This document shows, piece by piece, positions 5,656 through 24,600 of a DNA stretch of 36,974 bases. The stretch spans positions 1 to 36,974 of the forward strand of contig JAGSHB010000046.1 of NCBI GenBank assembly GCA_023954815.1, read 5' to 3'. The notes under the pieces were generated by a model. That model made no database searches and was not told the DNA's origin. It saw only the letters and a program-made list of their open reading frames with translations. The translations under genes were made by a program, and so were the position numbers. The first letter of the stretch is position 1. Every line of letters starts with the position of its first letter. Origin of the DNA: Myxococcales bacterium (GTDB lineage: Bacteria; Myxococcota_A; UBA9042).

Positions 5656-5971
5656 GGCGGGCCTTGTAGCGGCGGGGCTTCGCGGCGGCAACCATCTTGG
5701 AAGCGACGCACGCGGATTCGTGCTTGTTGGAGCGGATTGTCCAAGGTCGTCCTTTACTCAAACATGACGAACCATTAGCAACAATTCGACACAAATGTTC
5801 ACGAATGCACTTGGCCCGACCAGCAGAGATCGATAAGCTCCCGATAACTCAATGCGCCGTTTGGGCGGCAAACACCGGTCGGCAAGTCTCTGAAATGAGG
5901 CCACCAGTAGCGCGATTTCGGTTGGTGTTCGCGGGTCGTGCGCACAGAGAGAACGAGAGATGGAGCTCGCC
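5656..5971. promoter_or_regulatory. Divergent intergenic region between aminotransferase and MopE-type lipoprotein genes
   Basis: This 316-nt stretch separates genes transcribed away from each other and so must hold promoters for both. It is moderately AT-richer at 5755-5810. I could not assign convincing -35/-10 pairs. A small hairpin (GCACG at 5708-5712 with CGTGC at 5719-5723) is too short to interpret. No credible gene is seen inside. Confidence 0.45.
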
Positions 5972-8074
5972 ATGCTCAGAATTCGAAACGCAGCTTCCAG
6001 ACTGGTAGTCCTCGCTGCCGTATTGACGGCCCTCGCTGCCGGCTGCGGTGAAGGCAGCACTGAGGTCAAAGGCAGCACGGACGCTGGCTCGGCTGGAGGC
6101 TCCGAGGACGGCGTCATCTCTGAAGACGCCGGGCTGACAGGTGACTCCAACGGAACCGAAGACGCCGCAGTTGCCGAAGACACGGCGACGGCGGTCGAAG
6201 ACACCGCAGTTACCAAGGACGCCGACGACAACGATACAGGCGGCGCGGACGCCGCAGACGCATCAGCCCCCGTAGGCTGCCCGGGGAGCGCAGGTTGCGA
6301 ATGTAGCGAAGCAAGCGACTGCGACCAGGGTGTCTGCATCGACACGGCGGACGGCAAGAAGTGCGCCCAAACCTGCACCGAGAACTGCCCCGGCGGCTCC
6401 ACCTGCAAGAAACTGGGTGATGGCGACGTGATCTTTGTGTGTGTGCCCAACTTCGTCTCCCTCTGCTCTCCTTGCGAGACGAATTCGGACTGTAACGCCG
6501 TAAATTCAACGACCTTGTGTCTAGACTACGGCAAAAACGGTAAGTTTTGCGGAGGCACGTGCAAGTCCAACGGCGACTGCCCGACCAACTACAACTGCAT
6601 CGATGCGCCTGACAACGACACCGGCAAGATCTTCAAGCAATGCAAGCTCGCAGCCAAGGTCTCGGCGGGCAGCGGCAGCACCTGCAGCAAAGACAGCGAA
6701 TGCCCCGCTGACCAGAGCTGCAATGACGGAAAATGCGCCATCGTGACGTTGCCGATGTGCACCTGCTCAAAGTGGGCGACGGTCTTTGGCAAGAGCACGA
6801 CCTGCAATACAACCAACGCGTTCGGTACCTGTACCGGCAAGCGGACCTGCACCGACAAGGGCATGTCGGACTGCAGCGCGACCGAGGCGAAGGAAGAGAC
6901 CTGCAATGGCGTCGATGACGACTGCGATGGCGCGACGGACAAGCTGCCCGCGTCAGTCACGTGCACCGTAGCGACCTATCTCAACGACGGCAGCAAGAGC
7001 GCTTGCACCAAAGACAGCGACTGCTCCGCAGAAGGTGAGGGCTGCGATGAGGGGCAGTGTAAGACGTTCGTCGGCGCGTGTGCCGGTGAGCCCAAGTGCG
7101 ATGCGAAAGGCGGATTTGTCTGCGCCAACGCGAAGAAGGCGGTGGTCGAGGCCTGCAACGGGCTCGATGACGACTGCGACACCGACGTAGACGAGGACTT
7201 CGGCTGGGCGGAGCCTGGCACGACAAAGAAGCTGCCGTTGGGCGCGGCGTGTGGCCAAGGTGCGTGCGCAGGCGGCAAGGTGGCGTGCGTCAATCTCATC
7301 AAGGCGACCTGCACAACAGCCGACAAGGTCTCCAAAGAGAAGTGTGACGACGCCGACAACGACTGCAATGGCAAGGTCGATGACGCGGCCTGTGAAGACG
7401 GCGACGAATGCACCATCGATGCCTGCGACGGCAAGAGTGGGACATGCACCAACAAGCCCGGCGCCGATTGCGACGACAGCAACGCGTGCACCACTGACAG
7501 CTGCAATACGGCTTCCGGCAAGTGCGTCAACAAGTTCTACGCGGGCACGTGCGATGACGGCGACGCCTGTACGATCGGGGACACCTGCAAAGAGGTAGAC
7601 GGCAAGGGCGCGTGCGTACCGGGCGACAAGAAGAAGCAGTGTGACGACAGCAACCCGTGCACCGATGACTCATGCGACAAGGACAAGGGCTGCGTGACCC
7701 TGCCAAACGCTGTGACGCAGGTTTGCTACACGGGCGCCGACAAGACGGAAGATGTCGGCACCTGCAAAGCGGGCATCCGCTACTGCAGCAAGGGACAACT
7801 CGGCGATAAGTGCGTTGGCGAGGTCGTGCCGAACAAGACCGAAGCCTGTGACACGAAAGACGATAACTGTAATGGCAGCACCGACGAAGGCTGCTCGGCG
7901 AAGGGCCTGCAGGCGTTTACCTCCACGGTATCCGGCACCATGGACGGCGGAAAATCAGGCAAAAAGCTGTATGTGCACATCGATGGAGACGGCCCAGCGG
8001 GCAAGTCCGTCGGCACTAAGAACACACTCTGGTCGGGCTTTGTGGCGTGGCTGGTGGGAGCGACTGGCAGCTAG
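5972..8074 (+). CDS. Large Cys-rich lipoprotein with MopE-type metal-binding repeats
   Basis: The 700-residue exported lipoprotein has a signal (RLVVLAAVLTALAAGC) with acylated Cys C25, then an acidic D/E/S/T/G-rich linker of about 80 residues. A long Cys-rich body follows. Four copies of a CNGxDDDCD-type motif are visible: CNGVDDDCDGATD (about 6900), CNGLDDDCDTDVDED (about 7153), CDDADNDCNGKVDD (about 7343) and CDTKDDNCNGSTDEGC (about 7846). These match the putative metal-binding repeat named after the copper protein MopE and common in myxobacterial surface proteins. Between 7390 and 7715 four CDDxxxCTxDxC units resemble slime-mould CTDC-type repeats. The ATG at 5972 has GGAG 6 nt upstream; an ATG at 5960 is the alternative. 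A surface-exposed, disulfide-rich, Ca/Cu-binding role is inference. It ends 54 nt before the adhesin-like gene, probably in the same operon. Confidence 0.85.
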   Translation: MLRIRNAASRLVVLAAVLTALAAGCGEGSTEVKGSTDAGSAGGSEDGVISEDAGLTGDSNGTEDAAVAEDTATAVEDTAVTKDADDNDTGGADAADASAPVGCPGSAGCECSEASDCDQGVCIDTADGKKCAQTCTENCPGGSTCKKLGDGDVIFVCVPNFVSLCSPCETNSDCNAVNSTTLCLDYGKNGKFCGGTCKSNGDCPTNYNCIDAPDNDTGKIFKQCKLAAKVSAGSGSTCSKDSECPADQSCNDGKCAIVTLPMCTCSKWATVFGKSTTCNTTNAFGTCTGKRTCTDKGMSDCSATEAKEETCNGVDDDCDGATDKLPASVTCTVATYLNDGSKSACTKDSDCSAEGEGCDEGQCKTFVGACAGEPKCDAKGGFVCANAKKAVVEACNGLDDDCDTDVDEDFGWAEPGTTKKLPLGAACGQGACAGGKVACVNLIKATCTTADKVSKEKCDDADNDCNGKVDDAACEDGDECTIDACDGKSGTCTNKPGADCDDSNACTTDSCNTASGKCVNKFYAGTCDDGDACTIGDTCKEVDGKGACVPGDKKKQCDDSNPCTDDSCDKDKGCVTLPNAVTQVCYTGADKTEDVGTCKAGIRYCSKGQLGDKCVGEVVPNKTEACDTKDDNCNGSTDEGCSAKGLQAFTSTVSGTMDGGKSGKKLYVHIDGDGPAGKSVGTKNTLWSGFVAWLVGATGS
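6895..7890 (+). repeat. Four dispersed MopE-type CNGxDDDCD coding repeats and four CDDxxxCT units
   Basis: Protein-level repeats inside the lipoprotein gene. MopE-type units lie near 6895-6942, 7147-7200, 7336-7393 and 7837-7890. Between the third and fourth lie four CDDxxxC(T)-type units (about 7391-7715). The units are diverged at DNA level, so they look like old domain duplications, not recent tandem slippage. Confidence 0.75.
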
Positions 8075-8128
8075 CGGGAGCGTTCAACGCAGGACGTGAA
8101 AGCTGGTTTGGACCAAGGGGAGAAGGCA

Positions 8129-11032
8129 ATGAGAAAGTGTGAGGTTCGTCGTGCAGCGGCTCGGTCGCTGACCTTTGGCTTGATAACAGCGATGACGCTG
8201 CTCACCGTGACGCCGGCCTTTGCCGACGTCGGCGATGTGATCAACGTACAAGGTCGTTTGGTCTCCCAAGCCGGAACGCCGGTGCCGGACGGCCAATACA
8301 CCATGACTCTTGGCTTTTATAAGACCAAGGCCGCTGCCAAGGCGTTGTATTCGTACATCGCGGTCGGCGTGCAGGTCACCAAGGGCACTTTTGCGGTGCG
8401 CGTGGGCGAAAAGTTCGCGTTGGACAAGAAAGTGTTCGCGTCCGGTGAGGCCGGCTGGCTCGGCGTCACAATCGGCGGCGACGCGGAGCTGCCCCGGCTC
8501 GCGTTGGCCAAAGTTCCTTATGCCATTCGCGCTGATTCGGCGGCGGCGGCGGACTCGGCGGCATCGGCTGCCAAGCTCGCGTGCTCCGGCTGCATCGACC
8601 AGAGTCACCTCGACGCCAAGTTCACGGCGACGTTGGCGAAGAAGGGCGATCTCTCTGCGGTGGCGACCAGCGGCAAGTACAAAGATCTCACCGGAAAACC
8701 GACGTTGGTAAAGACGACGCAGACCTGCGCCAAAGGGGAAGTGGCTGCGGGGATCGACGCTGCGGGCAAGCTCACGTGCGTCAAGGACAAGAACGACGCC
8801 ACGGTCTACACGGGCAAGGACTTTGCGCTGTCCAATCAGAAGTGCGCCTCTGGCAAGGTCCTCGCAGGGCTCGACAGCGCTGGCAAGGCCATCTGCGTGA
8901 CCGACAAGGACACGAACACGACCTACACCGGAAAGAACTTTGCGTTGGCCAACAAGACCTGCCCGAGCGGCACCGTCATGCGCGGGGTGACGAGCTTGGG
9001 TACGCCAAACTGCATCAAAGACGCCAACTCCACCTACTCTGGCAAGAACTTTGCGCTGTCCAACAAGCTCTGCCCGAGTGGCTACGTCATGCGCGGCGTC
9101 ACGAGCTCAGGCACGCCGAACTGCATCAAGGACGCCAACTCGACCTATTCTGGCAAGAACTTCGCCCTGTCGAACAAGCTCTGCCCGAGCGGCTACCTCA
9201 TGCGCGGCGTCACGAGTTCCGGCACACCAAACTGCGTCAAGCCCACGGCTGTCGGCATCACCTCGGTCAAGGGCTGGAGCGGCCGCTCTGGCTCAAGCTC
9301 CGGCTGGACATCCAGCGGCGGCTGGGGTGAGCCACGGTTCAGCTCATCTTCGGCGCACACAGCGACCGCGGGAAGCACCACAGCGGGCAAGGAGTACATG
9401 GACTTCGCCATCCCCTCCGGCAGCAAGACCGCGTGGATCTCGGTGATGGCTTGGAACAACGGCGGCTACTTCGACATCTTGCTCAAGAAGAGCAACGTCT
9501 GGAAGTTCCACCGTCGACTCAGCTCCTACCAGGCGATTTCGAACTCCAGCGGCGGCGGCACGCACGACGGCAACGTCATTCAGCTTGCAGGTACCGGCCT
9601 CAATCACTTCACGCACATCCGGATTCAGAACCGCAAAGGCCGCATCCACTTCACCGGTCTGGGCTTTTCGCCGGAAGACATGCAGAGCAACGGCGGCAGC
9701 GGCTTCCCGCACTGGGACAACGTCGTCAATCGTCCGAAAGTTGCCTACACGAGCACCATCGCGGCTGATGATTTCAACCAGACTGAGGTCAACAACCTGC
9801 GCGCGGGCAAGCTGGATAACGGCACAACGCCTTGGACGAGCGGCACGAGCCACAACCACACCTACAACGTCAATGACGCATGGCTGAGGGACAACGGCGA
9901 CAACGCCCACGTCAAACTGTACGGCAACAAGCGCACACTCGTCATGCGGACCGATGGCACAGCGCAGTACGGCAGCAATGGCGGCTACCCGTTCCTCTGG
10001 CTGTACGGAGGCGACGGCACAGGCAATCGCCTGATGATGATCAACACGGCGGGCCAGCTCTGGCTGAAGAACTACGGTTGGTTGCACGATAAGTTCCAGG
10101 CCAAGGGCAGCTACCTACCGACCGCAGGCGGCACCATCACGGGTAACCTGAGCGTCAAGGGAACACTCACCGTTGGAAGCACGCTTCACGCTAACAATGG
10201 CGTCTCGGTGGACGGCAAGGTCGTTATCGACAATGGCGCTGGCTGGCATCGCTCCTATGGCGCGACGGGTTGGTACAACGGTACGTACGGCGGCGGTATG
10301 ACCATGACGGACACGACCTACGTCCGCGTGTACGGCGGCAAGATCCTCTACAACGACAAGGCGATTCGTGGCGACGGCGGTATCTACGTCGGTGGTACGC
10401 ACGTAGCGAAGGGCAACCAGAGCTGCCCGTCGGGTCAGGTGCTCAAGGGCTTCAACAACTCTGGCAACAAGATCTGTACTGCGGGTGCCACGGGTGTTGT
10501 GTTCCGTCGCTGGGGTCGCACAGGCTGCCCGAGTGGCACGAGCTTGGTGTACTGGGGCTACATGGGTAAGTCCTACTACGGACACGGGGGTAGCGGCAAC
10601 GATTACCAGTGCTTGCACCGTACGCCCAACTACTTCACGTACAACACTGGCAACCACGACGAGGCGCTGATGTACGGCGTCGAGTACGAGATGAGCTCCA
10701 ACGCCATCGGCAAGGCTGGTTACCACGACTACAACGCACCGTGCGCCGTGTGCTATGCGCCCAACAAGAATACGCAGTTCATGCAGCCCGGCCGCTACAC
10801 CTGCCCGAGCGGCTGGACGACGACCTACAATGGCTACCTGATGGCTGAGCGCCACAACCACAGCTCATCGAACTGGGTCTGCGTCGACAAGAGCTTCCAG
10901 AACATCGGTAGCAAGGCCAACCAGAACGGCGGTCTGCTTTACCCGACAGAGATCGAATGTGGATCGATGCCCTGCTCCTCGGGCAAGTACCAGCAGAACA
11001 AGGAAATCACCTGCGCGGTCTGCTTGAAGTAG
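8129..11032 (+). CDS. Exported adhesin-like protein: tail-fibre/PilV-like module plus short-chain-collagen-type Cys-rich C-terminal domain
   Basis: The 967-residue protein has a Sec signal cleaved after AFA (residue 32). Residues 33-145 (INVQGRLVSQAGTPVPDGQY to LPRLALAKVPYAIRA) match an N-terminal beta domain common in bacterial surface fibre proteins. Residues of about 190-372 carry near-identical 37-residue Cys repeats. A Gly/Ser-rich region follows, then a fibre module (about 660-760) with GGTITGNLSVKGTLTVGS, GWYNGTYGGGMTMTDTTYVR and VYGGKILYNDKAIRGDGG, typical of phage tail fibres and of shufflon-type PilV tips. Residues 788-967 are Cys-rich (FRRWGRTGCPSGTSLVYWGY, APCAVCYAPN, GRYTCPSGW, NGYLMAERHNH, ITCAVCLK) and closely resemble, from memory, the C-terminal domain of animal short-chain collagen C4 proteins. 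The start at 8129 has GGGGAG/AAGG upstream; 8096 would add 11 residues. A role as a trimeric surface binding fibre is inference. Confidence 0.8.
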   Translation: MRKCEVRRAAARSLTFGLITAMTLLTVTPAFADVGDVINVQGRLVSQAGTPVPDGQYTMTLGFYKTKAAAKALYSYIAVGVQVTKGTFAVRVGEKFALDKKVFASGEAGWLGVTIGGDAELPRLALAKVPYAIRADSAAAADSAASAAKLACSGCIDQSHLDAKFTATLAKKGDLSAVATSGKYKDLTGKPTLVKTTQTCAKGEVAAGIDAAGKLTCVKDKNDATVYTGKDFALSNQKCASGKVLAGLDSAGKAICVTDKDTNTTYTGKNFALANKTCPSGTVMRGVTSLGTPNCIKDANSTYSGKNFALSNKLCPSGYVMRGVTSSGTPNCIKDANSTYSGKNFALSNKLCPSGYLMRGVTSSGTPNCVKPTAVGITSVKGWSGRSGSSSGWTSSGGWGEPRFSSSSAHTATAGSTTAGKEYMDFAIPSGSKTAWISVMAWNNGGYFDILLKKSNVWKFHRRLSSYQAISNSSGGGTHDGNVIQLAGTGLNHFTHIRIQNRKGRIHFTGLGFSPEDMQSNGGSGFPHWDNVVNRPKVAYTSTIAADDFNQTEVNNLRAGKLDNGTTPWTSGTSHNHTYNVNDAWLRDNGDNAHVKLYGNKRTLVMRTDGTAQYGSNGGYPFLWLYGGDGTGNRLMMINTAGQLWLKNYGWLHDKFQAKGSYLPTAGGTITGNLSVKGTLTVGSTLHANNGVSVDGKVVIDNGAGWHRSYGATGWYNGTYGGGMTMTDTTYVRVYGGKILYNDKAIRGDGGIYVGGTHVAKGNQSCPSGQVLKGFNNSGNKICTAGATGVVFRRWGRTGCPSGTSLVYWGYMGKSYYGHGGSGNDYQCLHRTPNYFTYNTGNHDEALMYGVEYEMSSNAIGKAGYHDYNAPCAVCYAPNKNTQFMQPGRYTCPSGWTTTYNGYLMAERHNHSSSNWVCVDKSFQNIGSKANQNGGLLYPTEIECGSMPCSSGKYQQNKEITCAVCLK
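8708..9244 (+). repeat. Tandem 111-117-nt coding repeats (37-39 residues, two Cys each)
   Basis: Units begin with Y(S/T)GKNFAL and end with GTPNCIKDANST. Complete units start at 8807, 8924, 9035 and 9146; the last ends near 9244 and a degenerate unit precedes at about 8708. The 9035 and 9146 units are nearly identical in protein and very similar in DNA, which suggests recent duplication or gene conversion. Each unit has two Cys about 17 residues apart (CPSG and PNC), likely one disulfide per unit. A diverged copy (QSCPSGQVLKGFNNSGNKIC) recurs near 10420-10480, just before the C-terminal domain. Confidence 0.9.
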
Positions 11033-11160: not shown

Positions 11161-12018
11161 ATGTTTTTGCGATGTGCCTGCGTTGTGCTGACGTTGGCTT
11201 GGGCCGGTTGTGCCCCCACGAGTGCGCCTAGTGCGGTGCATGTGCCCGGTGGCCCAGGGGCTGCGCCGACTCCGACAGCGAACATTCCGCCACCAGGAGC
11301 GAACTACAAGGCCCCGCCTGCCACGCCGAATTCTCCGCCCGGCCCCCGGCATGGACTACCTGCCGGCACGGCGAATCCGCGGACCGCCGGTGTGCCACCG
11401 AGTGGGCAACCTGCGCGCCAGGTTGATCTCGTGCCCGCGAACGCTCGGACAGGCGCCGTCGGGGGCAGTGCCGCAGCCGGAAGGCCAGCGCCAGCGGCGG
11501 CCAAGCCCGCCCCACAACGCCGCGCTGCCCCTCAGAAGCTCACCGCAGTGGCCGCGAGCAAGCTGGTGGAGGCGTATGCCGGTCGGCTCGGTCAGTACAA
11601 GGTCGAGATTTTGACTGCAAGGCGGGAGCCGCAGTTCTTTCGCATCGAATATCGGGTCGTGGCCCTCGGCGGCGAGCGTCGCATCATGTTTGTGACCCAC
11701 GATGGCAAATACGCCACGCGCCAGCTCGTAGACATGCAGCAGCGAACCGCGGAGCTGAACTCCGACCGGGCGCTGACCGATTGTCTGGTGTCGAAAGGGG
11801 TGAAGCTCTTCGTCATCCCCGGCGAGCCCAAGTCCGACGAGCAGATCGCGAGCATGGGGCCGTTTGGCAACCGGGTGCTCATCAACTGCAGCGGTTCGTT
11901 CAAAGCGAACTGCGCGGCACTCGGTTACAAGGCATTTCCCGTCTTCGTCTGGAATGAGGGCAGCGAGGTTGGCTTGAAACTACGTGCGCCGATGGCTGCC
12001 GATGTGGGGTGCAAGTGA
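11161..12018 (+). CDS. Lipoprotein with Pro/Ala-rich linker and thioredoxin-like four-Cys C-terminal domain (paralogue 1)
   Basis: The 285-residue protein begins MFLRCACVVLTLAWAGC; the acylated Cys would be C17. Residues 18-125 are a Pro/Ala/Gly linker, suited to spanning the periplasm. The globular C-terminal part (about 125-285) has MFVTHDGKYATRQLVDM and then ALTDCLVSKGVKLFVIPG, FGNRVLINCSG, a C-x7-C pair (C-SGSFKAN-C), LGYKAFPVFVW and a terminal GCK. The pattern and the FPVFV strand recall thioredoxin-like domains of DsbC/VKOR-associated type, but there is no CxxC, so a redox function is uncertain. The next gene is a clear paralogue sharing all four Cys positions. AAGGAG lies 5 nt before the ATG. 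The stop overlaps the next start (TGATG). Confidence 0.7.
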   Translation: MFLRCACVVLTLAWAGCAPTSAPSAVHVPGGPGAAPTPTANIPPPGANYKAPPATPNSPPGPRHGLPAGTANPRTAGVPPSGQPARQVDLVPANARTGAVGGSAAAGRPAPAAAKPAPQRRAAPQKLTAVAASKLVEAYAGRLGQYKVEILTARREPQFFRIEYRVVALGGERRIMFVTHDGKYATRQLVDMQQRTAELNSDRALTDCLVSKGVKLFVIPGEPKSDEQIASMGPFGNRVLINCSGSFKANCAALGYKAFPVFVWNEGSEVGLKLRAPMAADVGCK

Positions 12019-12680
12019 TGGTGGGCGGAGTGCAGCACCGCATGCTGTTGGTGATGGGAATCATTGCCCTGATGACGACGGCGTGCAGTCAAAAACGGCA
12101 GGCAGCCCCCGGCACGACGGCCAATAAGCCAGCGAGTGACGGCGAGGTGGCAGCGAAGAAAGGCAACGCTGAGGTCAAAAAAACGGACCGGCCATCGGCG
12201 AGCCAGATCGCAGCGCGCCTGCGGCTACTTCATGAAGCGGCGAGTGATAGCTCCGCTGACATCGTGGGTGTGACCGTCGACAAAGAGGTGTTCCGGGTGA
12301 CGCTGGCTGGAGGCGAACCGCCGCGCCGCGTGGACACAGCGATCGTCAGTCGCAGCGGCGACTTTCTGATGAAAAATGCCGTTGATCTACGGCAGGAACT
12401 GCACCGGATGGCCACCGACAAGCGGTTTGCAACCTGCCTCAGGAAGGCGGGCATTCAGCTCTTTGTGCAACGTGGAGATGCCCGCTCGCGGGCGATGATG
12501 CGCCGAATTGGGCGTTTCGCAGACCTTATCGCGGTCGACTGTAGCGGTCGCGGCAAGGAGCAGTGCCAGAAGATGGCCGTCGGTGGCACACCTGCCATCA
12601 GCCTGGGTGGTTCGATCCGCCCCGATGCCAACAGCATCGAATGGCTGGAGAGTGCGACGGGCTGCAAACTAGCCCGCTGA
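12018..12680 (+). CDS. Lipoprotein with thioredoxin-like four-Cys C-terminal domain (paralogue 2)
   Basis: The 220-residue probable lipoprotein has the signal LLVMGIIALMTTAC followed by a short Ala/Lys/Gly-rich linker. Its C-terminal domain parallels that of the preceding gene: RFATCLRKAGIQLFV, FADLIAVDCSG, C-SGRGKEQ-C with the same seven-residue spacing, GGTPAISLGG and a final ATGCK. Sequence identity is low outside these positions, so the duplication is old. The ATG at 12018 shares its A with the TGA stop of the previous gene, indicating coupling; an ATG at 12042 is the alternative and gives a more usual signal-peptide length. No enzyme motif is recognised. Co-export of two diverged partners that interact is plausible but inferred. 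Confidence 0.65.
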   Translation: MVGGVQHRMLLVMGIIALMTTACSQKRQAAPGTTANKPASDGEVAAKKGNAEVKKTDRPSASQIAARLRLLHEAASDSSADIVGVTVDKEVFRVTLAGGEPPRRVDTAIVSRSGDFLMKNAVDLRQELHRMATDKRFATCLRKAGIQLFVQRGDARSRAMMRRIGRFADLIAVDCSGRGKEQCQKMAVGGTPAISLGGSIRPDANSIEWLESATGCKLAR

Positions 12681-14917: not shown

Positions 14918-16756
14918 ATGAACACTGCGACCCTGCGCCTCACCCTGCGCTGCAACTTGAATTGTCCATTTTGCAACGCTCGCTCTGATCACGAGCCGGC
15001 CAAATCACACCAAGCGCTCAGCGCCGAATTGCAGCGGGCCCTCGATGACGGCGCGAGGGAGGTCGTGATCACCGGCGGCGAGCCCACCCTGCACCCCGCG
15101 TTGCCGGCACTCGTGGCCCAGGCGACCGCGGCGGGTAGCCGTGTGGTGGTGGAGACCAACGCCTTGGCGCTGACCCTGCCAGGACGAATCGATGAGCTCG
15201 TGGCGGCCGGCCGGCCGACGATTCGGTGGGGCATCTACAATGTCGGCGCGGCGGCGGACACGATGGGCCAGCGGCCGGGTGCCTTTGCGTTGGGACTCAA
15301 GGGATTGCAGTTGGCCGAATCGGCTGGGTTACCGATCGAACTGTCACTGGCTGTCACGGCCCGCACGGACGTCACCAACGTTGTCTCGTGGCTTGTGGAA
15401 GAGCTGCCGGCGGTCACCCAGTTGATGGTGCGACTGGTCAAGGAAGCCCCTGCTGGCTGGGTCCTCGGCCCTGCTCAGGCGGGCCCTGCGCTCAAATCTC
15501 TAGCGACCGCCTGCGACACATCCGGCCTGACCTTGGTCATGGAGCCGCGCTACGCCCTGCCCTTGTGTGCACTGAGCGGCGCCAACCGCTTTGGGGCGCT
15601 CTTTCGGGTCGCTGCCAGCGGAGACGGCAGTCACCTACGCCGGATCGATGCATGCGACGAGTGCGCCATCGCGGACATGTGCCCAGGCGTGGATGCGCAT
15701 TGGGTACGTGCGGTCGGGCAGGCTGATTTCAAACCGGTCACCTCAGGGCAGAGGCGACGGGCGCGCGGGTTGTTCACCGGAAGCAGCGCGCGTCAGTCCA
15801 TGATCGATCCCAGCGAAGGCATGTGGAGCGAGGAAGGCGGCAACGCCCAACTCGAACGGGTGCTGCGGGTGAACTTTCACTGCAATCAAGACTGCGCCTT
15901 CTGTTTCGTCGACCGCGTGCTCCCGGCCCCAGATGGCCAGCACATCCGTTCGCAGATCGACCGTGCCGCTGCCGATGGCGTCTCGCTGCTCTCGTTGAGC
16001 GGCGGCGAACCGACCCTCGATCCCGACCTTGCCTCCTATGTTGCGCAGGCGACTGACCTGGGAATTCGGGTACAGATCCAAACCAACGCGACGCGCCTAG
16101 CAAAGCCAGAATTGGCCGAAAGGCTCGCAAAAGCAGGATTATCGGAGGCTTTCGTCTCGCTCCACGGCGCTGTGGCCGACATCTCCGACGGCGTGACGCG
16201 GGCACCTGGGACGTTTGAGCAGACCCTCTTGGGCATCGATCAGCTGTTGCATTACGGCGTCCATGTCAGCCTGAATTGCGTCATTACCGGGCCAAACCAA
16301 CGAGACCTGGAGGCGCTCCCCCACCTCATCGCGCAGCGCTGGAAAGGCAAGCCAACGATCAACTTCTCGTGGGCCAACGCCAACAGCGGCATGGTGCCCG
16401 TGTCCAATGCTGTGACGCCGCGGTTTTCGACTGTGAAACCTCACGTCGCCCGCGCCCTGCAAGCCTGTCGCGATCTCGCGTTGGACTGGCGCGGACTGAC
16501 CGGCGAATGCGGCGTGCCGCTGTGCTTTCCGGAGCCCGGCTGGCTCGATTTGGCGCAAGTGCCGGAGCTTGGCACCGCTGCGCCTGGTCCAGGTTTTGAC
16601 AAGCCAAGCGCCTGTGAAGGATGCGAATTGTCCAACCGATGCGTCGGCGTGAGAGCCGGATATGCCGCCCTTCACGGCACCGATGAAGTGCAGCCAATTC
16701 GGGATCTACAAAAATGGCAGCGCGCATGGCGTGACTTCCGGCGCAAAACGGAATAG
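14918..16756 (+). CDS. Tandem (twin) radical SAM protein with two auxiliary-cluster-like Cys sets
   Basis: The 612-residue protein is built as two complete radical SAM units. Half 1 has the SAM-cluster motif C12-x3-C16-x2-C19 (RCNLNCPFC), GGEPT at about 52-56, and a C-terminal set C217 (LPLC) plus C246-x2-C249-x5-C255. Half 2 repeats the plan: C322-x3-C326-x2-C329 (HCNQDCAFC), GGEPT at about 363, C536 (VPLC; a further C531), and C566-x2-C569-x5-C575. Each half could therefore hold one radical SAM [4Fe-4S] cluster and one twitch/SPASM-like auxiliary cluster, as in enzymes that modify peptides or make cofactors. The substrate is unknown and no small precursor-peptide gene was recognised nearby. 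The ATG at 14918 has a weak ribosome site (CGGA). It follows the large lipoprotein gene by 12 nt. Confidence 0.88.
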   Translation: MNTATLRLTLRCNLNCPFCNARSDHEPAKSHQALSAELQRALDDGAREVVITGGEPTLHPALPALVAQATAAGSRVVVETNALALTLPGRIDELVAAGRPTIRWGIYNVGAAADTMGQRPGAFALGLKGLQLAESAGLPIELSLAVTARTDVTNVVSWLVEELPAVTQLMVRLVKEAPAGWVLGPAQAGPALKSLATACDTSGLTLVMEPRYALPLCALSGANRFGALFRVAASGDGSHLRRIDACDECAIADMCPGVDAHWVRAVGQADFKPVTSGQRRRARGLFTGSSARQSMIDPSEGMWSEEGGNAQLERVLRVNFHCNQDCAFCFVDRVLPAPDGQHIRSQIDRAAADGVSLLSLSGGEPTLDPDLASYVAQATDLGIRVQIQTNATRLAKPELAERLAKAGLSEAFVSLHGAVADISDGVTRAPGTFEQTLLGIDQLLHYGVHVSLNCVITGPNQRDLEALPHLIAQRWKGKPTINFSWANANSGMVPVSNAVTPRFSTVKPHVARALQACRDLALDWRGLTGECGVPLCFPEPGWLDLAQVPELGTAAPGPGFDKPSACEGCELSNRCVGVRAGYAALHGTDEVQPIRDLQKWQRAWRDFRRKTE

Positions 16757-16907
16757 TCAGACCGCCCGGCGACATGAACGCAGGTCGCCTTGGTCAGAGG
16801 TTGCAACGTCCGGCCCGCACGAGAGCGGTGTCTCGACAGGCGCAACCAATGGCCCCATTGCGGGGGAGACCCCACCCAACGACGTTAGACGAGGGAGCAG
16901 CGTACTC
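16757..16907 (+). other. 151-nt gap before the Bat operon
   Basis: The frame upstream of the MoxR start is open back to 16662, but that extension has no family match and overlaps the radical SAM gene. The gap contains a small GGGG/CCCC hairpin (about 16862-16873) and a GAGGGAG ribosome site near 16891-16897. No confident promoter hexamers were found, so the operon could start here or be read through from the radical SAM gene. Confidence 0.4.
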
Positions 16908-17894
16908 ATGCAGGACATTCGAATTCTCAATGAGTTGGTTCGCCAAGAGTCACAGTTCATCGACGGACTCCTGGCTGAGATGCAGAAAGTAGTGGTTGGC
17001 CAGACCGAGATGGTCGAGCGGCTGCTGATCGGCATGCTGACCGGTGGTCACGTGCTGCTAGAAGGTGTGCCGGGGTTGGCGAAGACCCTGACGGTGCGCA
17101 CCCTGGCCGACACCATGCAGGTGGCGTTCCAGCGCATTCAGTTCACGCCCGATCTGCTGCCCGCCGACATTCTTGGCACCCAGATCTACAATCCGCGCGA
17201 TCAGACCTTCAGCGTGAAGAAGGGCCCGATCTTCTCGAACCTCATCCTGGCTGACGAGATCAACCGTGCGCCGGCCAAGGTGCAGTCGGCGCTACTCGAA
17301 GCGATGCAGGAGCGGCAGGTCACCATCGGTGAGACCACGTTCAAGCTCGCATCGCCCTTTCTGGTGCTCGCTACGCAGAACCCGATCGAGCAGGAAGGCA
17401 CCTACCCGCTGCCCGAAGCGCAGGTCGACCGTTTCATGCTCATGGTCAAGGTCGGCTACCCCTCCAAAGAGGAAGAGCTGAAGATTCTTGAGCAGGCGAC
17501 CAGCGGCTATTCGGCCGATGTTCAGGGCATTATCACGGGAGAGCAGCTGCAAAAAGCGCGTGATGTGGTCCGTGACATCCACATCGATGATCAGCTCAAG
17601 CGCTACATCATCGACCTGATCTTCGCGACCCGTGAGCCTCGCAAGCACGGTCTCGGTGACGCGTCTGAGTACATCGAGTTCGGTGCCAGTCCCCGTGCGA
17701 GCATCTACCTGACCATGGCGGCCAAGGCCCACGCCTTCTTGCGCCATCGCGGCTACGTCATCCCGGAGGACATCAAGGCTGTCGGCATGGACGTGCTGCG
17801 GCATCGCGTGATCCTGACGTACCAGGCGGAGGCCGAGCAGTTGACCAGTGAGGACATCGTTCAGCGCATCTTCGATCGCATCGACGTGCCCTAG
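16908..17894 (+). CDS. moxR: MoxR-family AAA+ ATPase
   Basis: The 328-residue cytoplasmic AAA+ ATPase of the MoxR family acts as a chaperone-like partner of VWA-domain proteins. The Walker A motif is GVPGLAKT (about 53-60), Walker B is LILADEINR (about 113-121), and the sensor 1 region is LATQNPIEQEGTYPLPEAQVDRF, very typical of the family. The C-terminal lid contains ASPRASIYLTMAAKAHAFLRH. The start at 16908 (MQDIRILNEL) is fixed by a GAGGGAG ribosome site and by family length. It is the first gene of a moxR-DUF58-batD-batA-batB type operon, the classical order for the Bat system, in which MoxR is thought to act on the VWA proteins encoded downstream. Confidence 0.95.
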   Translation: MQDIRILNELVRQESQFIDGLLAEMQKVVVGQTEMVERLLIGMLTGGHVLLEGVPGLAKTLTVRTLADTMQVAFQRIQFTPDLLPADILGTQIYNPRDQTFSVKKGPIFSNLILADEINRAPAKVQSALLEAMQERQVTIGETTFKLASPFLVLATQNPIEQEGTYPLPEAQVDRFMLMVKVGYPSKEEELKILEQATSGYSADVQGIITGEQLQKARDVVRDIHIDDQLKRYIIDLIFATREPRKHGLGDASEYIEFGASPRASIYLTMAAKAHAFLRHRGYVIPEDIKAVGMDVLRHRVILTYQAEAEQLTSEDIVQRIFDRIDVP

Positions 17895-17960
17895 GAGCAG
17901 TCGGTTGGTTCGCTCGTCTGGGTGATGGGCGTTGGCAAGGGTTTGGAGGGAGCGGAGCGC

Positions 17961-18839
17961 ATGGCAGCGACGAGCGAGATCCTAAAAAAGGTCCGCGAGA
18001 TCGAATTGGTGACGAGGCGGCTGGTCAACACCACGCTGGCTGGGCAGTACCATGCTGTGTTCAAGGGCCGGGGCATGAGCTTCGATACCGTGCGCGAGTA
18101 CCAGCCCGGCGACGACGTTCGCATGATCGACTGGAACGTGACGGCGCGTACGGGCGAGCCCTTCATCAAGACCTTCGTCGAAGAGCGCGAGCTGACGGTG
18201 CTCATCGCGGTCGATATGAGCGCGTCGGGTGAGTTCGGTACGGTCGATCAGAGCAAGCGCGAGTTGGCTGCCGAAATCGCGGCTGTGCTGGCCTTTTCGG
18301 CTATCAAGAACAACGACCGGGTTGGCTTGGTGATGTTCTCGGACCGCATCGAGCGCTACATCCCACCGAAGAAGGGCCGCGCCCACGTGCTGCGGGTGAT
18401 TTTTGAGCTGCTGGAGTTCGTTCCGCAGGGGACGGGCACTGACATCGAAGCCGCGTGCACCTACCTGACCAACATCCAGCGCCGCCGCTCGGTGGTGTTT
18501 CTGCTCAGTGACTTCATCGCCGACGACTACGAGCGCGCCTTGGGCATCGCTGGCCGCCGCCACGACCTCGTTCCCCTGGTCATCGAGGACGAAAAAGAGG
18601 TCGCTTTGCCCGATCTTGGGCTCTTGGCGCTCGAAGATGCAGAGACCGGCGACGTGCTCTGGTTTGACAGCGGCTCAAAGTCAGTTCGCAACAAATACGC
18701 GAAGATTGCGGCCTCTATGCGGGCAGCGCGTGACAAATCCTTTCGTAAGCACGGCATGGAGCCCATCAGCGCAACCGTCGGTCAGAGCTACCTGCCGGCA
18801 CTCACCGCCTACTTCCGCCGTCGCGCGGCCCGTCAGTAA
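17961..18839 (+). CDS. DUF58 domain protein (VWA-like, Bat operon)
   Basis: The 292-residue cytoplasmic protein has the DUF58 core signature FKGRGMSFDTVREYQPGDD followed by VRMIDWNVTARTGEPFIK and the VWA-type segment VLIAVDMSASGEFG (a DxSxS metal site). VVFLLSDFI further on corresponds to the conserved Asp strand. DUF58 proteins nearly always sit next to moxR and are thought to work with it. The ATG at 17961 (MAATSEILKK) is chosen because GGAGGG lies about 10 nt upstream; a GTG at 17922 would add 13 non-conserved residues. The gap to moxR is 66 nt and to the next gene 21 nt. Confidence 0.92.
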   Translation: MAATSEILKKVREIELVTRRLVNTTLAGQYHAVFKGRGMSFDTVREYQPGDDVRMIDWNVTARTGEPFIKTFVEERELTVLIAVDMSASGEFGTVDQSKRELAAEIAAVLAFSAIKNNDRVGLVMFSDRIERYIPPKKGRAHVLRVIFELLEFVPQGTGTDIEAACTYLTNIQRRRSVVFLLSDFIADDYERALGIAGRRHDLVPLVIEDEKEVALPDLGLLALEDAETGDVLWFDSGSKSVRNKYAKIAASMRAARDKSFRKHGMEPISATVGQSYLPALTAYFRRRAARQ

Positions 18840-18860
18840 TCTGGAGTAGAGACGAAACCG

Positions 18861-20555
18861 ATGCGATCCACCCTGCCCCGCTTGCTGATCTTGCTCGCCG
18901 CTCATGCGGTTGTGCTGCCGAGTGTCGCCCAGACGCCGGGCGCCGCCCAGACGCCGGGCGCAGCACAGACGCCAGGCGCTGCGGTGCCAGCTGCTGATCC
19001 CAAGACAGGCATTCGACCGCTCCCCACGGCGGCCGCTCCCAAGGCAGCGGTGAAGAAGGCGCCGGTCAAAGTCAGCGCCACGCTCAGCAAACCCGAGCCC
19101 GTCTTTGGCGACCGATTCGAAGTGGTCGTCGTGCTGCGTTATCCGACTGATGTGCGCGCGTTCTTCCCCCGTAATCCCGATCTCAAACCCCTGCTGACCC
19201 TGCCCGGTGATGCGGGTCGGGTGGAGCGTCGTGAGGAAAATGGCGAGACGGTCGAGGTGCTGCATATCCCCGTCTTGGCCGTAAAATCAGGGCTTTTGCG
19301 CACGCCGAAGGTCGAGGTGCCCTGGCACCGCGTGACGGCGAGTGGCGGCGCTGGTGAGAGCGGGACGGCCACGTTGAAGGGGCTGCGGATCGTGGTGCGC
19401 AGCCAGTTCGCGGATGCGACCGATGTCAAAGCTGCGCCCCTGCCCAAACCGATGCCGCTCGTCGAAGAGAATGTGCCGCTCAAGGTGGGCCTGCTGGTCC
19501 TAGCCATGATGCTGCTCGCCGGTGCGCTGACGGCTGTGGGTCTGCGGGTCTACCGCAATCGCGCCCTCCGTGCCGAGCCTGAGCCCGAGATTCCGCCGCA
19601 CGTGGTGGCGTTCGGAAAGATCGCCAATCTGCGTAAGTCTGAGCGGCTGGGTGATGGCGAACCGCGCCTGATTCTCGGTGAGATCAGCGCCATTTTACGA
19701 GAATACGTCGGCCGGCGTTATCGCATGCCCGCGCTGGACATGACGTCGACCGAGCTGCTCGAGTCCTTGGATGACAAGGACCTGCGCGGCGTCCAGCTGA
19801 GTGAATTCCAAGACTTTACCTCGATTGGCGATCTGGTGAAGTTCGCCAAGCAGCCCGCAACCCCTGAATTTCTAGGCGAACAGCTGACGTGGGTCGAGCG
19901 GGTCGTCGATCGCACCATGCAGACGCCAGAGGAAGTGGAGCGCCTGCGCCAGCAGAAGATCGCGCGCTTGGCACGGCAGAAGCGTCTGCAGATTCAGGTG
20001 ATGGCCCCGGCGCAGTTGCGGCTGTTGGCCTTTGCGATCGACTTGTTCATCGGCGGCGCGCTAACGCTGCTCATCGCGTGGCTCGCTATCGATACGGCCA
20101 AGCAGGGATTGTTTGACGCGAGCTACGGCGTCTTTATCGCCTGGCTCGTGCTGCGCGACTTGTTGGGTGATGCGTCCCCCGGTAAGGCCATCGTCGGACT
20201 GCGCATCGCCCAATGGGATGAGACCTTTGAGGTCGACGCTGAGGCAGCCCTGCGAGAGGACGCGGCCGCTCGGCGCCTGTCACGGCAAGCTGCTGTGGCG
20301 AGTTTTGGCGCACGATTGCAGCGGAACCTGTTGATGATCTTGCCCGGCGCGGGTCTCGCGGCTGAGGCGCTGACGTGCTGGTATCTGCCAGAGATGCGGC
20401 GCCTGGGCGATCAGTGGGCAGAGACCCGCGTCATCGATGCGCGCTATGGCTTGCGCAAAGTTGTCACCGGTTGGGGTCCAGGCGCGGTCGTGGCCGTGTG
20501 TGCCCTCGTCGCCTTGCTACTGCCGCTATTTGTACTGGGAGGGCGCCCGCTATGA
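18861..20555 (+). CDS. BatD/DUF4381-like protein fused to a C-terminal RDD membrane domain
   Basis: The 564-residue inner-membrane protein has a signal peptide cleaved after SVA (residue 23). An Ala/Pro/Gln repeat linker follows, then a periplasmic beta domain (about 70-195; VKVSATLSKPEPVFGDRFEV, with PWHRVTASG near its end). A membrane helix spans about 203-228. The cytoplasmic region (ILREYVGRRYRMPALDMTSTE and DLVKFAKQPATPEF, about 255-350) resembles the soluble tail of BatD/DUF4381 proteins. Residues of about 384-560 form an RDD-type domain (QLRLLAFAIDLFIGG, LVLRDLLGDASPGKAIVGLR) with several membrane helices. The fusion of a Bat-type protein to an RDD domain is unusual. The stop overlaps the batA start by 4 nt (ATGA, 20552-20555). 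Confidence 0.8.
   Translation: MRSTLPRLLILLAAHAVVLPSVAQTPGAAQTPGAAQTPGAAVPAADPKTGIRPLPTAAAPKAAVKKAPVKVSATLSKPEPVFGDRFEVVVVLRYPTDVRAFFPRNPDLKPLLTLPGDAGRVERREENGETVEVLHIPVLAVKSGLLRTPKVEVPWHRVTASGGAGESGTATLKGLRIVVRSQFADATDVKAAPLPKPMPLVEENVPLKVGLLVLAMMLLAGALTAVGLRVYRNRALRAEPEPEIPPHVVAFGKIANLRKSERLGDGEPRLILGEISAILREYVGRRYRMPALDMTSTELLESLDDKDLRGVQLSEFQDFTSIGDLVKFAKQPATPEFLGEQLTWVERVVDRTMQTPEEVERLRQQKIARLARQKRLQIQVMAPAQLRLLAFAIDLFIGGALTLLIAWLAIDTAKQGLFDASYGVFIAWLVLRDLLGDASPGKAIVGLRIAQWDETFEVDAEAALREDAAARRLSRQAAVASFGARLQRNLLMILPGAGLAAEALTCWYLPEMRRLGDQWAETRVIDARYGLRKVVTGWGPGAVVAVCALVALLLPLFVLGGRPL
18927..18980 (+). repeat. Three tandem 18-nt coding repeats (AQTPGA)
   Basis: Three copies of an 18-nt unit (GCCCAGACGCCGGGCGCC and two near-identical versions) encode AQTPGA three times directly after the signal peptide. 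Copy number is likely variable between strains, because perfect or near-perfect short repeats expand and contract by slippage. Confidence 0.9.
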
Positions 20556-21670
20556 CGAGCAGCTTCACCCTTGAACATCCATGGTTTCTGCTGGGTCTGG
20601 TGCCTGTGCTGGCCCTCGCTTGGGTGCGTCTGCGCGCTGTTCCCGCCGCGCTGCGCGTGTCGAGTCTGAAGACCGCCCGTGCAGCCGGAACTGGGCCAAG
20701 AGCCCGGGTTTGGTGGCTGCCAGACGCCATTCGGCTTATCGCAGCGGGCCTGTTGGTCGTCGCTATGGCGCGCCCGCAGCAGATCGATCGGGAGCTGCTG
20801 AGCGGCGAGGGCATCGACATCATGATAGCCGTCGATATGAGCGGCTCCATGAACGCCATCGACGCATCTGAGGCGGACATCCAGAAGATTCAGTCCAAGG
20901 GATCAGAGCCGCTCAATCGCTTCGGGACGGCCCGCAAAATCCTCAAGCAGTTTATCCGTGAGCGCAAAAGTGACCGCATCGGCATCGTCATCTTCGGCGC
21001 CGAGGCCTACCTGCGCTTCCCGCCGACGCTCGACTACGTGCGCCTGCTCAACTCCCTCGATTCGCTGGTGCTCGACAACGGCCGTCGCCAAAGTAATACG
21101 GACAAGAACTGCTCCAATGGCTGCACGATCCCGGGCTCGGGCACGGCGATTGGCGACGCCCTCAACCGCGCGTACATGCGGCTAGAGCACAGCAAGGCCA
21201 AGTCCAAGATGATCATCCTGATCACCGACGGCAAGCAGGAAGGCGGCTCTATGGCCGGTGTCACCGTGCCGAAGTACATCGCCAGTTTGCCGGAGAAAGA
21301 GCGGGTTCGGATCTACACGTTCCAGGTCGGTTCAGGCCGTGATTCTAGGCTGCCAGCCGTCGATCCCCTGCGCGGCACCCTGCTGCGTGACCGGTTCGGC
21401 CGGGCGCAGTACCAGCGGCCCCAGCGGCCCTTCCCGACAGACCCCGAGCTGTTGCGTCAGATCGCAAAGCTGACCGGCGGCAAGTTCTACCAGAGCTACG
21501 ACCCCAAGAAGTTCGCGAAAGACTTCAAGGATTTGGAGCGCACGACCTTCAAGGTCAAAGTACACACCAACCGCAAAGAAATGTTCTTTCCGTGGTTGCT
21601 CGCGGGCCTGATTTTGCTGGGCTTTGAGCAATTGCTGCGGCTGACTTGGCTGCGGACCTTCCCGGCCTAA
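20552..21670 (+). CDS. batA: BatA-type VWA membrane protein
   Basis: The 372-residue inner-membrane protein has two N-terminal membrane helices (FLLGLVPVLALAWVRL and IRLIAAGLLVVAMA), a von Willebrand factor A domain facing the periplasm, and one C-terminal helix (FFPWLLAGLILLGFEQLL). The metal site is complete: D95-x-S97-x-S99 (DMSGS), T198 (GSGTAIG) and D226 (ITDGK). The RPQQ segment before the VWA domain is typical of BatA/BatB. An insertion at about 176-197 carries two Cys (KNCSNGCTIP), which could form a local disulfide. The start overlaps the previous stop (ATGA). In Bacteroides and Leptospira, Bat genes are tied to oxidative stress tolerance; the molecular role is not established. Confidence 0.92.
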   Translation: MTSSFTLEHPWFLLGLVPVLALAWVRLRAVPAALRVSSLKTARAAGTGPRARVWWLPDAIRLIAAGLLVVAMARPQQIDRELLSGEGIDIMIAVDMSGSMNAIDASEADIQKIQSKGSEPLNRFGTARKILKQFIRERKSDRIGIVIFGAEAYLRFPPTLDYVRLLNSLDSLVLDNGRRQSNTDKNCSNGCTIPGSGTAIGDALNRAYMRLEHSKAKSKMIILITDGKQEGGSMAGVTVPKYIASLPEKERVRIYTFQVGSGRDSRLPAVDPLRGTLLRDRFGRAQYQRPQRPFPTDPELLRQIAKLTGGKFYQSYDPKKFAKDFKDLERTTFKVKVHTNRKEMFFPWLLAGLILLGFEQLLRLTWLRTFPA

Positions 21671-21685
21671 GGAGCGACTGAGACG

Positions 21686-24600
21686 ATGGATGAGCTGACC
21701 TTCGCGAGCCCTGAGATGGCCTGGCTTGCCGTTCCCGCTGTCGTGCTGACAGCGTGGGGCTTGGTGCAGCTGCGTCGTTTGTCCATTCGTTTGGCCCGCT
21801 TGGGTACCGGCCCGGTGATTCATCGGCTCATCGCCAGTTTCTCGCCTCGCCGGGCGACTTGGCAGTGGGTCTGCGTGGGACTAGCCGGCGTGCTGCTCGC
21901 CGCGTCGGCCATGCGGCCCCGGTATGGGCTGCGCGAGACCGAGGTCGCCAACGCAGGAATCGACGTGGTCTTCGCCGTGGACGCGAGCAAGTCCATGCTG
22001 GTTCGCGATGTGGTGCCCAACCGATTGCAGGGCACGATGCTGGAGATTTCGGGGCTGCTCGAACAGCTCGCTGGCGGCCGCGTGGCCCTGGTGCCGTTCG
22101 CCGGAATTCCTTTCGTGCAGTGCCCGCTGACGACCGATCAGGAGGTCATTCGGACCTACATGGGCGAGCTCAAGCCGAGCGATATGCCCGTGGGCGGCAC
22201 CAATATCGGCCGCGCGATTAGCCTAGCTGCCGAGGTGCTCACGGGCGGCAAACAGCAGGCCGAGGCGAAGCTGCGCGGCAACTTAATCCCCCAATTTAAG
22301 GGCAGTAAGCACAAAGCCATCGTGTTGTTTAGCGACGGTGAAGACCACGAGGGCGCCGCGTTGAAGGCCGCCAAGAAGGCCGCCGCGCAGGGGATTCGCA
22401 TCTACACCGTCGGCGTGGGCTCTGGTTTTGGCGATCCGGTGCCGATCATCAGCGGTGATGGCACTGTGACGGGCACCCTGAAGGACAGCTCTGGCAATCC
22501 CATCTTCTCCAAGCTCAACGGCAAGCTGCTGACCGCGATCGCCAAAGCGACGGGCGGCAAGTACTTGCACTACGCCAACAAGACGGTGGTGCCGGACCTG
22601 TTCGCGGCGCTCGATGCGCTCGAAAAGGCCGAGTACGCCGAGACGTTTAAGCTGCTTGGCGAGGATCGGTACCAGTATCTGCTCGGTCCGGCGCTCCTGC
22701 TCCTGCTCATCAGCTTGTTGCTGACCCCGCGGCGGGCCCTGGCACGGGCCGCTGTCGTATTGGTCGGCTTGGCGATGCTGCCGATGCAGTCTGCCCAGGC
22801 TGCCAAACCAGCGCAGGTGCCGACCGCCTCGCAGATGGCCACGGCGCCGCCTGCAAAGTTAGCTCCGGCTGAGCCGCCGGCGGCGTCGCCGAAGCCAGCG
22901 GCCAAGAGATCCGGCGAGCGCACCCAGGCCGAGGCGCGGCGCGACCAGTCGTGGATGGAGCGCGAAAACCCCGACATCGCCGATGGCCGGGACCTCATCG
23001 CGGCGGGTAAGCCAGGAGAGGCGCTGACGGCGTTTCGCGCGGCGAAGGAAAACCGGCCAGAACACGCTGTTATTTGGTACAATATTGGCTTGTCACAGGC
23101 GATTTTGGGCCAGTACGAGGAGGCGGCCAAAGCCCTCGGGCGGGCGCTGTCGGCGCTGGCGGAGTCCGATCCTGAACTAGAGGCGGATATCCACTACACG
23201 AGCGGCACTTCCGAGTTGTTGTGGGGCCAGGATGTGTTGGCGCGAGCGGCGAGCGCGCGGCAGGCCAATGCGGGCGGCGGATCAGCCAAGCCCGACCCAG
23301 CTCCTGGCGCAACCCTCGGCGGCGCTCCGGGAAAGAAGGCGCCAGGAAAGAAGAGCGCAGCTACGGACGCCAAAACCGTGGAAAATGAGGCTGCTGGCCA
23401 CTTTCGCACGGCCGTTGAGCGGTTGCAGGAAGCGCTGATGGCCGCCCCTAGCCGGGTCGATGTGCGTCGCAATCTGGAGCTGGCGCGGATGCTGGCGTAC
23501 CCCCCGTGCGAGCGTCGCGACAAGGCGATGGAGCCGAACAATCAGGTCGCGCAAGCCAAGCCGCTCAAGCTCGATCCGAAGAAGAAAGAGACCAGCTTCA
23601 CCCTGGTGAGTTGCCCGATCGACCGGGACTTGTTTCAGCTGCCGCTACGCGCAGGTGATCGGCTGACCGTGACCGTCGACGCCAAGGAGCCGGACGACAA
23701 GCTCATCGATCCGCTCGACCGTGACAGCAGCCGCCCGGTGGAGCTGGCGGTGCAGCTGCGCAGCCTCGATGGGCAGACGGTGATTCGCGGCGGAGACGCC
23801 CCGACCCAGACCGTGCAGTGGGCGGACGTTCGGCAGGATGAGCGCATCTTGGTGGACGTGCGCAACGTGGCCGAGCAAGAAGCCAACTACGACTTGAAGG
23901 TGAAGATCTTACCCGCCTGCCCGCGGACCGAAGATCCACTGGAGCCCAACGACACGCTGCAGCAGGCCAAAGAGGTGCCGCTGGGCCGGCCGCTGCCCAT
24001 GCGTTTGTGCCCGCGCAATGAGGACTGGATCGCCGTGCGTCTGTCTGCCGGCCAGGGTGTGTTGGTCAAGGCCAAGGCTGAGTTTGACCTCGGCACAGAG
24101 ACCCTAGAGCTCGACGTGATGGGGCCCGATGGCGCCCTGCTGAGCCATGGTGTGCAGGCGAAAGAGGGCTATCTCGCGCGCATGGCCTACGCGCCGATTC
24201 CAGGGCTGTATTACGTCCGTGTGCGCGGTGGAATCGACACAGAAGCCAGCTATCAGCTTTCCATTTCGGTGCTGCCGCCGTGCCAACGCCGAGATGACGC
24301 CTACGAGCAAAACGACCAAGCGCTCAGCGCCAACCCCATGGCGAAGCGGCACTTGAGCGGTCCCCTGCCACCGATGCAGCTCTGCCCGGGTGATGACGAC
24401 TGGTACCAAGTCGAGCTGGCGCAGGGCGAGAGTCTATTCGTGGACCTGATGGCGAAAGTCGCTGAGTTGCCCGATGTGGCGCCGCTGGCCGGTCAGCTGA
24501 CGGTGACGGTGTACGACAGCGCTGGTCGGGTTTGGGGTAAGGCGAGAGGTGCACCACTGAAGGCCGGTCAGGAGAGTCTGGGACGGACCGCGGCCGTTTT

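Follow-up and report, generated by a model that had tools for sequence, protein, structure and literature searches.

We analysed a 36,974-nt stretch of contig JAGSHB010000046.1 from a Myxococcales bacterium, hereafter the window. Its forward strand carries the gene of a chimeric fibre protein, which comprises the following features, with residues numbered from GTG 8096.

8096..11032, + strand: whole gene of the chimeric fibre protein; open frame with a collinear homologue in the genus-mate (L034)
8129..8227, + strand: signal-peptide-like start, residues 12-44, with the hydrophobic run LTFGLITAMTLLTVTPAFA; by eye from the sequence
8198..8620, + strand: N-terminal base domain, common to 19 ORFs of the genome; weak Bdello_MAT_N match (window copy, E 0.00099)
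8702..9259, + strand: Cys-pair repeat array (CxxGxVxxGxxxxGxxxC type); sequence repeats
9266..9715, + strand: uncharacterised domain, residues 391-540; borders by eye from the sequence
9716..10489, + strand: tail-fibre-like stalk (residues 541-770), then the last Cys-pair repeat with linker (771-798)
10493..10759, + strand: NC1-like tip, first C4-like lobe, residues 800-888; lobe-lobe match, collagen IV profile and fold
10760..11029, + strand: NC1-like tip, second C4-like lobe, residues 889-978; lobe-lobe match, collagen IV fold

The protein has 978 aa from GTG 8096 and 967 aa from ATG 8129, the latter being the likelier start codon. The base domain, starting at 8198, overlaps the signal-peptide-like region. 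Within the Cys-pair array, three tandem 111-bp copies at 8905-9241 hold one Cys-pair unit each; the length of this region differs between the window and the genus-mate. Residues 391-540, which are 74% identical to their genus-mate counterpart, form a probably β-rich domain with no match in Pfam or PHROG. The genus-mate's homologous stalk matched Pfam Shufflon_N (E 1.9e-11), which we count in favour of a fibre, as did the stalk of the paralog L062 (E 9.2e-13). Pfam Collagen had no match in the window protein, which therefore lacks a recognisable Gly-X-Y stretch. The original observation of a bacterial fibre-type protein devoid of such repeats and capped by an end domain of animal collagen type held.

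The genes on either side were also inspected. Upstream, at 5960-8074, lies a gene whose Cys-rich, secreted product has Dicty_CTDC repeats (1.1e-10) and a metal-binding motif of the MopE type (3.4e-6); it adjoins the fibre gene in the genus-mate as well. On the 3′ side, 11161-12680 encodes, one after the other, two small proteins of secreted type that have spaced cysteines, a thioredoxin-like appearance and no Pfam match, the first of which is conserved in part in the genus-mate. At a guess, these proteins could help the Cys-rich fibre to form its disulphides. Farther downstream, at 16662-28444, is a MoxR / DUF58 / VWA / BatD gene run of the aerotolerance-operon type.

The motifs by which the C-terminal domain had been likened to invertebrate short-chain collagens are all present in the forward frame from GTG 8096: RWGRTGCPSGTSLVYWGY at 10508, APCAVCYAP at 10736, CPSGWTTTYNGYLMAE at 10802, VCVD at 10877, NQNGGLLYPTEIECGSMPC at 10919 and ITCAVCLK at 11006. 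The domain spans 10493-11029 in frame, comprising the last 179 residues (800-978), and is followed by a stop codon at 11030-11032. The start first given for it, 10494, was one base off the frame; the residue range first given, 788-967, agrees with numbering from ATG 8129. The domain contains ten cysteines, four in the first lobe (811, 839, 883 and 886) and six in the second (903, 929, 955, 960, 973 and 976). By analogy with collagen IV, we take the likely disulphides to be 811-886, 839-883, 903-976, 929-973 and 955-960. When the domain was shuffled 200,000 times, its Cys/Trp scaffold was never reproduced; that scaffold was itself derived from the observed sequence, so that the independent evidence is homology. 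The same scaffold recurs in copies from other genomes. In hhalign comparisons, the two halves of the family alignment (1-89 and 90-179) matched each other with E-values of 1.7e-21 for 17 members and 3.2e-10 for the five spongin-like members. Judged by these alignments, the tip domain is a head-to-tail duplication of two C4-like lobes, as is the NC1 domain of collagen IV, which consists of two tandem C4 repeats (PMC6211539).

Searched alone, the tip domain had no convincing family in Pfam, NCBIfam or PHROG, and its single-sequence match to human collagen IV NC1 was marginal (E 0.02), which we count against the relationship. A similarity to AlkB (NCBIfam 0.0093; PDB E ∼0.5) was dismissed, being short, local and no stronger than noise. 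A profile built from four bacterial copies was then run against the PDB: all 10 sequences at E<=1 were collagen IV NC1 domains, from mammals to Drosophila Viking. The human α1 single chain scored 3.4e-5, and single-chain constructs holding several NC1 copies scored 8.7e-14 and 3.2e-9. Profiles of 17 and five members again had collagen IV as the top family, together with a few unrelated weak matches. Pfam C4 (PF01413) matched three of the 17 members (best E 0.0028), none of which reached the cut-off; the window copy did not match, and the genome to which it belongs yielded nothing at E<=10. A Pfam scan alone would therefore overlook this NC1-like family.

Structure prediction pointed to the same family. 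The AlphaFold2 model of the window tip domain, computed as a single chain, had a pLDDT of 78 and a pTM of 0.78. According to Foldseek, the top 18 PDB matches of this model were all collagen IV NC1 domains (best E 5.6e-6, probability 1.00), and beyond these there was no convincing match. A model of the relative L026 (pLDDT 81, pTM 0.80) gave collagen IV NC1 for all of its top 36 matches. Superposition of the window tip on collagen IV NC1 yielded TM-scores of ∼0.5 with an rmsd near 9 Å, which counts against the relationship; the models suggest that the lobes match those of collagen IV NC1, with an arrangement relative to each other that is different or uncertain. Overall, homology of the tip domain to the NC1 domains of collagen IV and spongins is well supported by sequence profiles and predicted fold, and both approaches bore out the kinship with collagen NC1 domains, as measured against collagen IV.

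The tip resembles collagen IV NC1 (PF01413; animals and Ministeria) in its tandem C4-C4 lobes, its CPSG...CxVC cysteine framework and its predicted fold. It differs in being shorter (179 versus ∼230 residues), in lacking one cysteine pair of the first lobe, in falling below the Pfam cut-off, in being attached to no long collagen domain and in lacking the HSQ motif. This motif is absent from window residues 800-978, whereas collagen IV has it at the aligned place (collagen IV HSQTIQIPPCPSGW versus window FMQPGRYTCPSGW). The NC1 domain of spongins has been described as having seven cysteines in common with collagen IV, three of its own and no HSQ motif (PMC5395295). Set against that published description, the cysteine pattern of the tip would be spongin-like rather than collagen-IV-like. 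The original claim of a short-chain-collagen-like domain is supported by NC1 homology, the ten cysteines and the missing HSQ, with likeness to the animal members judged from their description. Spongin short-chain collagens (short-chain collagen C4 of invertebrates) likewise end in an NC1-type domain with ten cysteines and no HSQ motif. By contrast, the window protein is bacterial, has no Gly-X-Y stretch and possesses a bacterial fibre base and stalk.

The original reading needs correcting in one respect, as the domain is not a one-off on a collagen-free protein: Myxococcota hold a deep and diverse family, several members of which carry Gly-X-Y repeats directly before the domain. The window tip is the sole NC1-like copy in its own genome. 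In the genus-mate, L034 encodes a 78% identical tip among collinear neighbouring genes. Few Myxococcota genomes carry a copy, e.g. 11/379 at E<=1e-6, and a scan of the genome collection with two short patterns gave three loci. In a tree of 17 bacterial copies, a five-member spongin-like clade was supported at 100/98 alongside several other clades, which are scattered over different taxonomic families of the phylum. On the basis of this tree, Myxococcota carry several deep subfamilies of the NC1-like domain. No match to the tip domain was found in phages, plasmids or IMG/VR, nor was there a viral fold match, and we rejected a phage or plasmid origin on these grounds.

Two further architectures occur in the window tip's own subfamily. 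L009/L014 encode a short putative lipoprotein in which ∼12 Gly-X-Y triplets (Pfam Collagen 1e-6) precede the ten-Cys domain. In L026/L030, the ten-Cys domain comes after a fibre base (Bdello_MAT_N 7.3e-6) and a long run of Gly-X-Y (Pfam Collagen 1.3e-25). L009/L014 and L026, which belong to this subfamily, thus also resemble spongins in having Gly-X-Y directly before the NC1-type domain. Gly-X-Y also lies ahead of more distant versions of the domain in L005, L010, L018, L020, L025 and L028. In architecture, as read from their sequences, these relatives are bacterial short-chain collagens. A precedent for an animal-type end domain on bacterial collagen is provided by bacterial collagen-like proteins with animal-type caps, namely those with a Cthrc1 C-terminal domain and BclA (PMC7058181); those caps are C1q/TNF-like jelly rolls, whereas the window tip is of the C4/NC1 type.

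Several further loci deserve mention. In genome G384, two NC1-like proteins of different subfamilies are encoded ∼1.2 kb apart on opposite strands (L030:1933-3690, −; L030:4928-6784, +). In genome G013, a 97-residue frame (L041:5086-5376, −) holds approximately the last 45 residues of a spongin-like tip (NANQNGNLLYPTEAECGSLPC...CVVCAR) and is probably a decayed gene. L013 (contig CAMDBH010000103.1, genome G004) encodes a fibre whose tip shows 47% identity; its record title, "Klebsiella pneumoniae", looks wrong, as the genome was placed in the window's Myxococcota family.

The N-terminal base links the window protein to a set of paralogs. This domain occurs in 19 ORFs of the genome, the window protein included (loci L061-L078), and the last 180 residues of the 16 complete fibre paralogs fell into 11 tip clusters. 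Pfam analysis of ten paralogs identified a TLDc tip (L068, 3.6e-28), weak COLFI/fibrinogen-C matches in two (L071 and L077) and Shufflon_N in one stalk. The TLDc and COLFI/fibrinogen-C-like tips are further domain types best known from eukaryotes. Bdello_MAT_N (NF053851) matched 11 of 13 base domains (best 7.4e-7); the window base scored 18.9 bits, below the curated cut-off of 60, and this counts against a MAT-like reading. The mosaic adhesive trimers (MAT) of Bdellovibrio bacteriovorus comprise 21 surface-displayed fibres with a constant base and varied adhesive folds at the fibre ends, such as TNF-like and C-type lectin tips, one of which was demonstrated to bind prey glycans (PMC10769870). 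The two systems are alike in having ∼20 fibres per genome, a common N-terminal base, a fibre stalk and varied tips. They differ in that the window base lies below the curated cut-off and in that an NC1 tip type is not described for MAT fibres; the word "collagen" does not occur in PMC10769870. Because a common base is combined with varied tips, as in Bdellovibrio, we interpret the window protein as a MAT-like adhesin whose tip is NC1-like. It may well work like a MAT fibre; we do not class it as one, since its base falls below the curated cut-off.

We therefore favour, with a probability of about 0.68, a MAT-like chimeric surface fibre, capped by an NC1-like tip that binds an external ligand. 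The protein would be secreted and displayed at the surface, where the N-terminal base probably anchors it, and the Cys-pair repeats and tail-fibre-like stalk would lengthen the fibre. The two-lobed, disulphide-rich C-terminal domain would be the tip. Three tips probably associate, which would place six C4-like lobes in a ring capping a trimeric fibre. This ring could present a face that binds an outside target, such as prey, a surface glycan or matrix. The ∼19 fibres, having a common base and different tips, would then work like the Bdellovibrio MAT adhesins. We infer trimerisation, surface display and function, ligand binding included, from the architecture and from MAT and NC1 biology, and disulphide pairing from the collagen IV analogy; the host is known from a MAG. 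The relatives in which the domain comes right after Gly-X-Y have it at the expected site of a trimeric cap, which we count for the fibre-cap reading.

These same relatives can be read differently: the domain might be a structural cap or network former that aligns and locks three chains, or joins fibres end to end, as part of a matrix without target recognition. The NC1 domain of collagen IV does direct trimer and network assembly (PMC5395295, PMC6211539), and Gly-X-Y repeats precede the domain in several relatives. However, there is no collagen helix in the window protein for such a domain to nucleate, and the tip lacks the collagen IV HSQ motif, while the paralogs keep the base and vary the tip, as expected for ligand diversity. 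We consider a purely structural role unlikely. Far less probable still is that a Cys-rich bacterial domain merely resembles NC1 through convergence, or that the gene is eukaryotic contamination of the assembly. The marginal single-sequence match (E 0.02) and the failure of any member to reach the Pfam C4 cut-off, with the window's own genome empty, are what such an artefact would have in its favour. Against it, collagen IV was dominant in every profile search and in both fold searches, the two-lobe duplication is the same as in collagen IV NC1 and in several MAGs the domain shares one reading frame with bacterial modules. As to contamination, the 37-kb contig also carries the bacterial MoxR/DUF58/VWA/BatD run. 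The adhesive MAT-like fibre thus remains our preferred reading.

The origin of the domain was considered separately. The third-position GC of the tip (0.844) agrees with that of the rest of the gene (0.812), and we rejected a recent foreign gene as judged by base composition. Together with the collinearity in the genus-mate and the depth of the family in the phylum, this agreement argues against a very recent arrival. An origin in bacteria, an early transfer into them and an older common ancestry would each fit these observations. One scenario is that the spongin-like subfamily reached Myxococcota from an animal, e.g. a sponge or cnidarian, and was then fused to a bacterial fibre. Animal spongins have the same pattern of ten cysteines and no HSQ (PMC5395295), and the spongin-like clade is patchy and on a long branch. 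However, in the tree of bacterial copies this clade is nested in a broader bacterial family, whose several deep subfamilies come from different taxonomic families; the third-position GC fits the host, and the gene and its neighbours are collinear in the genus-mate. An animal source is conceivable and, in our estimate, rather unlikely. Equally tentative is the scenario in which the NC1/C4 domain found in collagen IV and spongins predates animals and is of bacterial origin. The domain would have diversified as a fibre and collagen cap in Myxococcota or related bacteria, passed to an ancestor of Filozoa and become the organiser of basement membranes. The C4-C4 arrangement has been dated to the filozoan ancestor (PMC5560861).

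The C4-C4 NC1 domain, the organiser of basement membranes, has been described as being of filozoan origin (PMC5560861, PMC5395295). We found no paper on NC1/C4 domains in bacteria in a literature search that was incomplete, most subscription papers lying outside its scope, and the term NC1 is absent from a review of bacterial collagens. A diverse bacterial family of two-lobed domains, some of them on a collagen stalk, would provide an outgroup and thereby make the origin of NC1 testable by tree. The short bacterial collagen caps could also serve structural work. For the MAT-like sets of bacterial surface fibres, the NC1-like tip would represent a new tip type.
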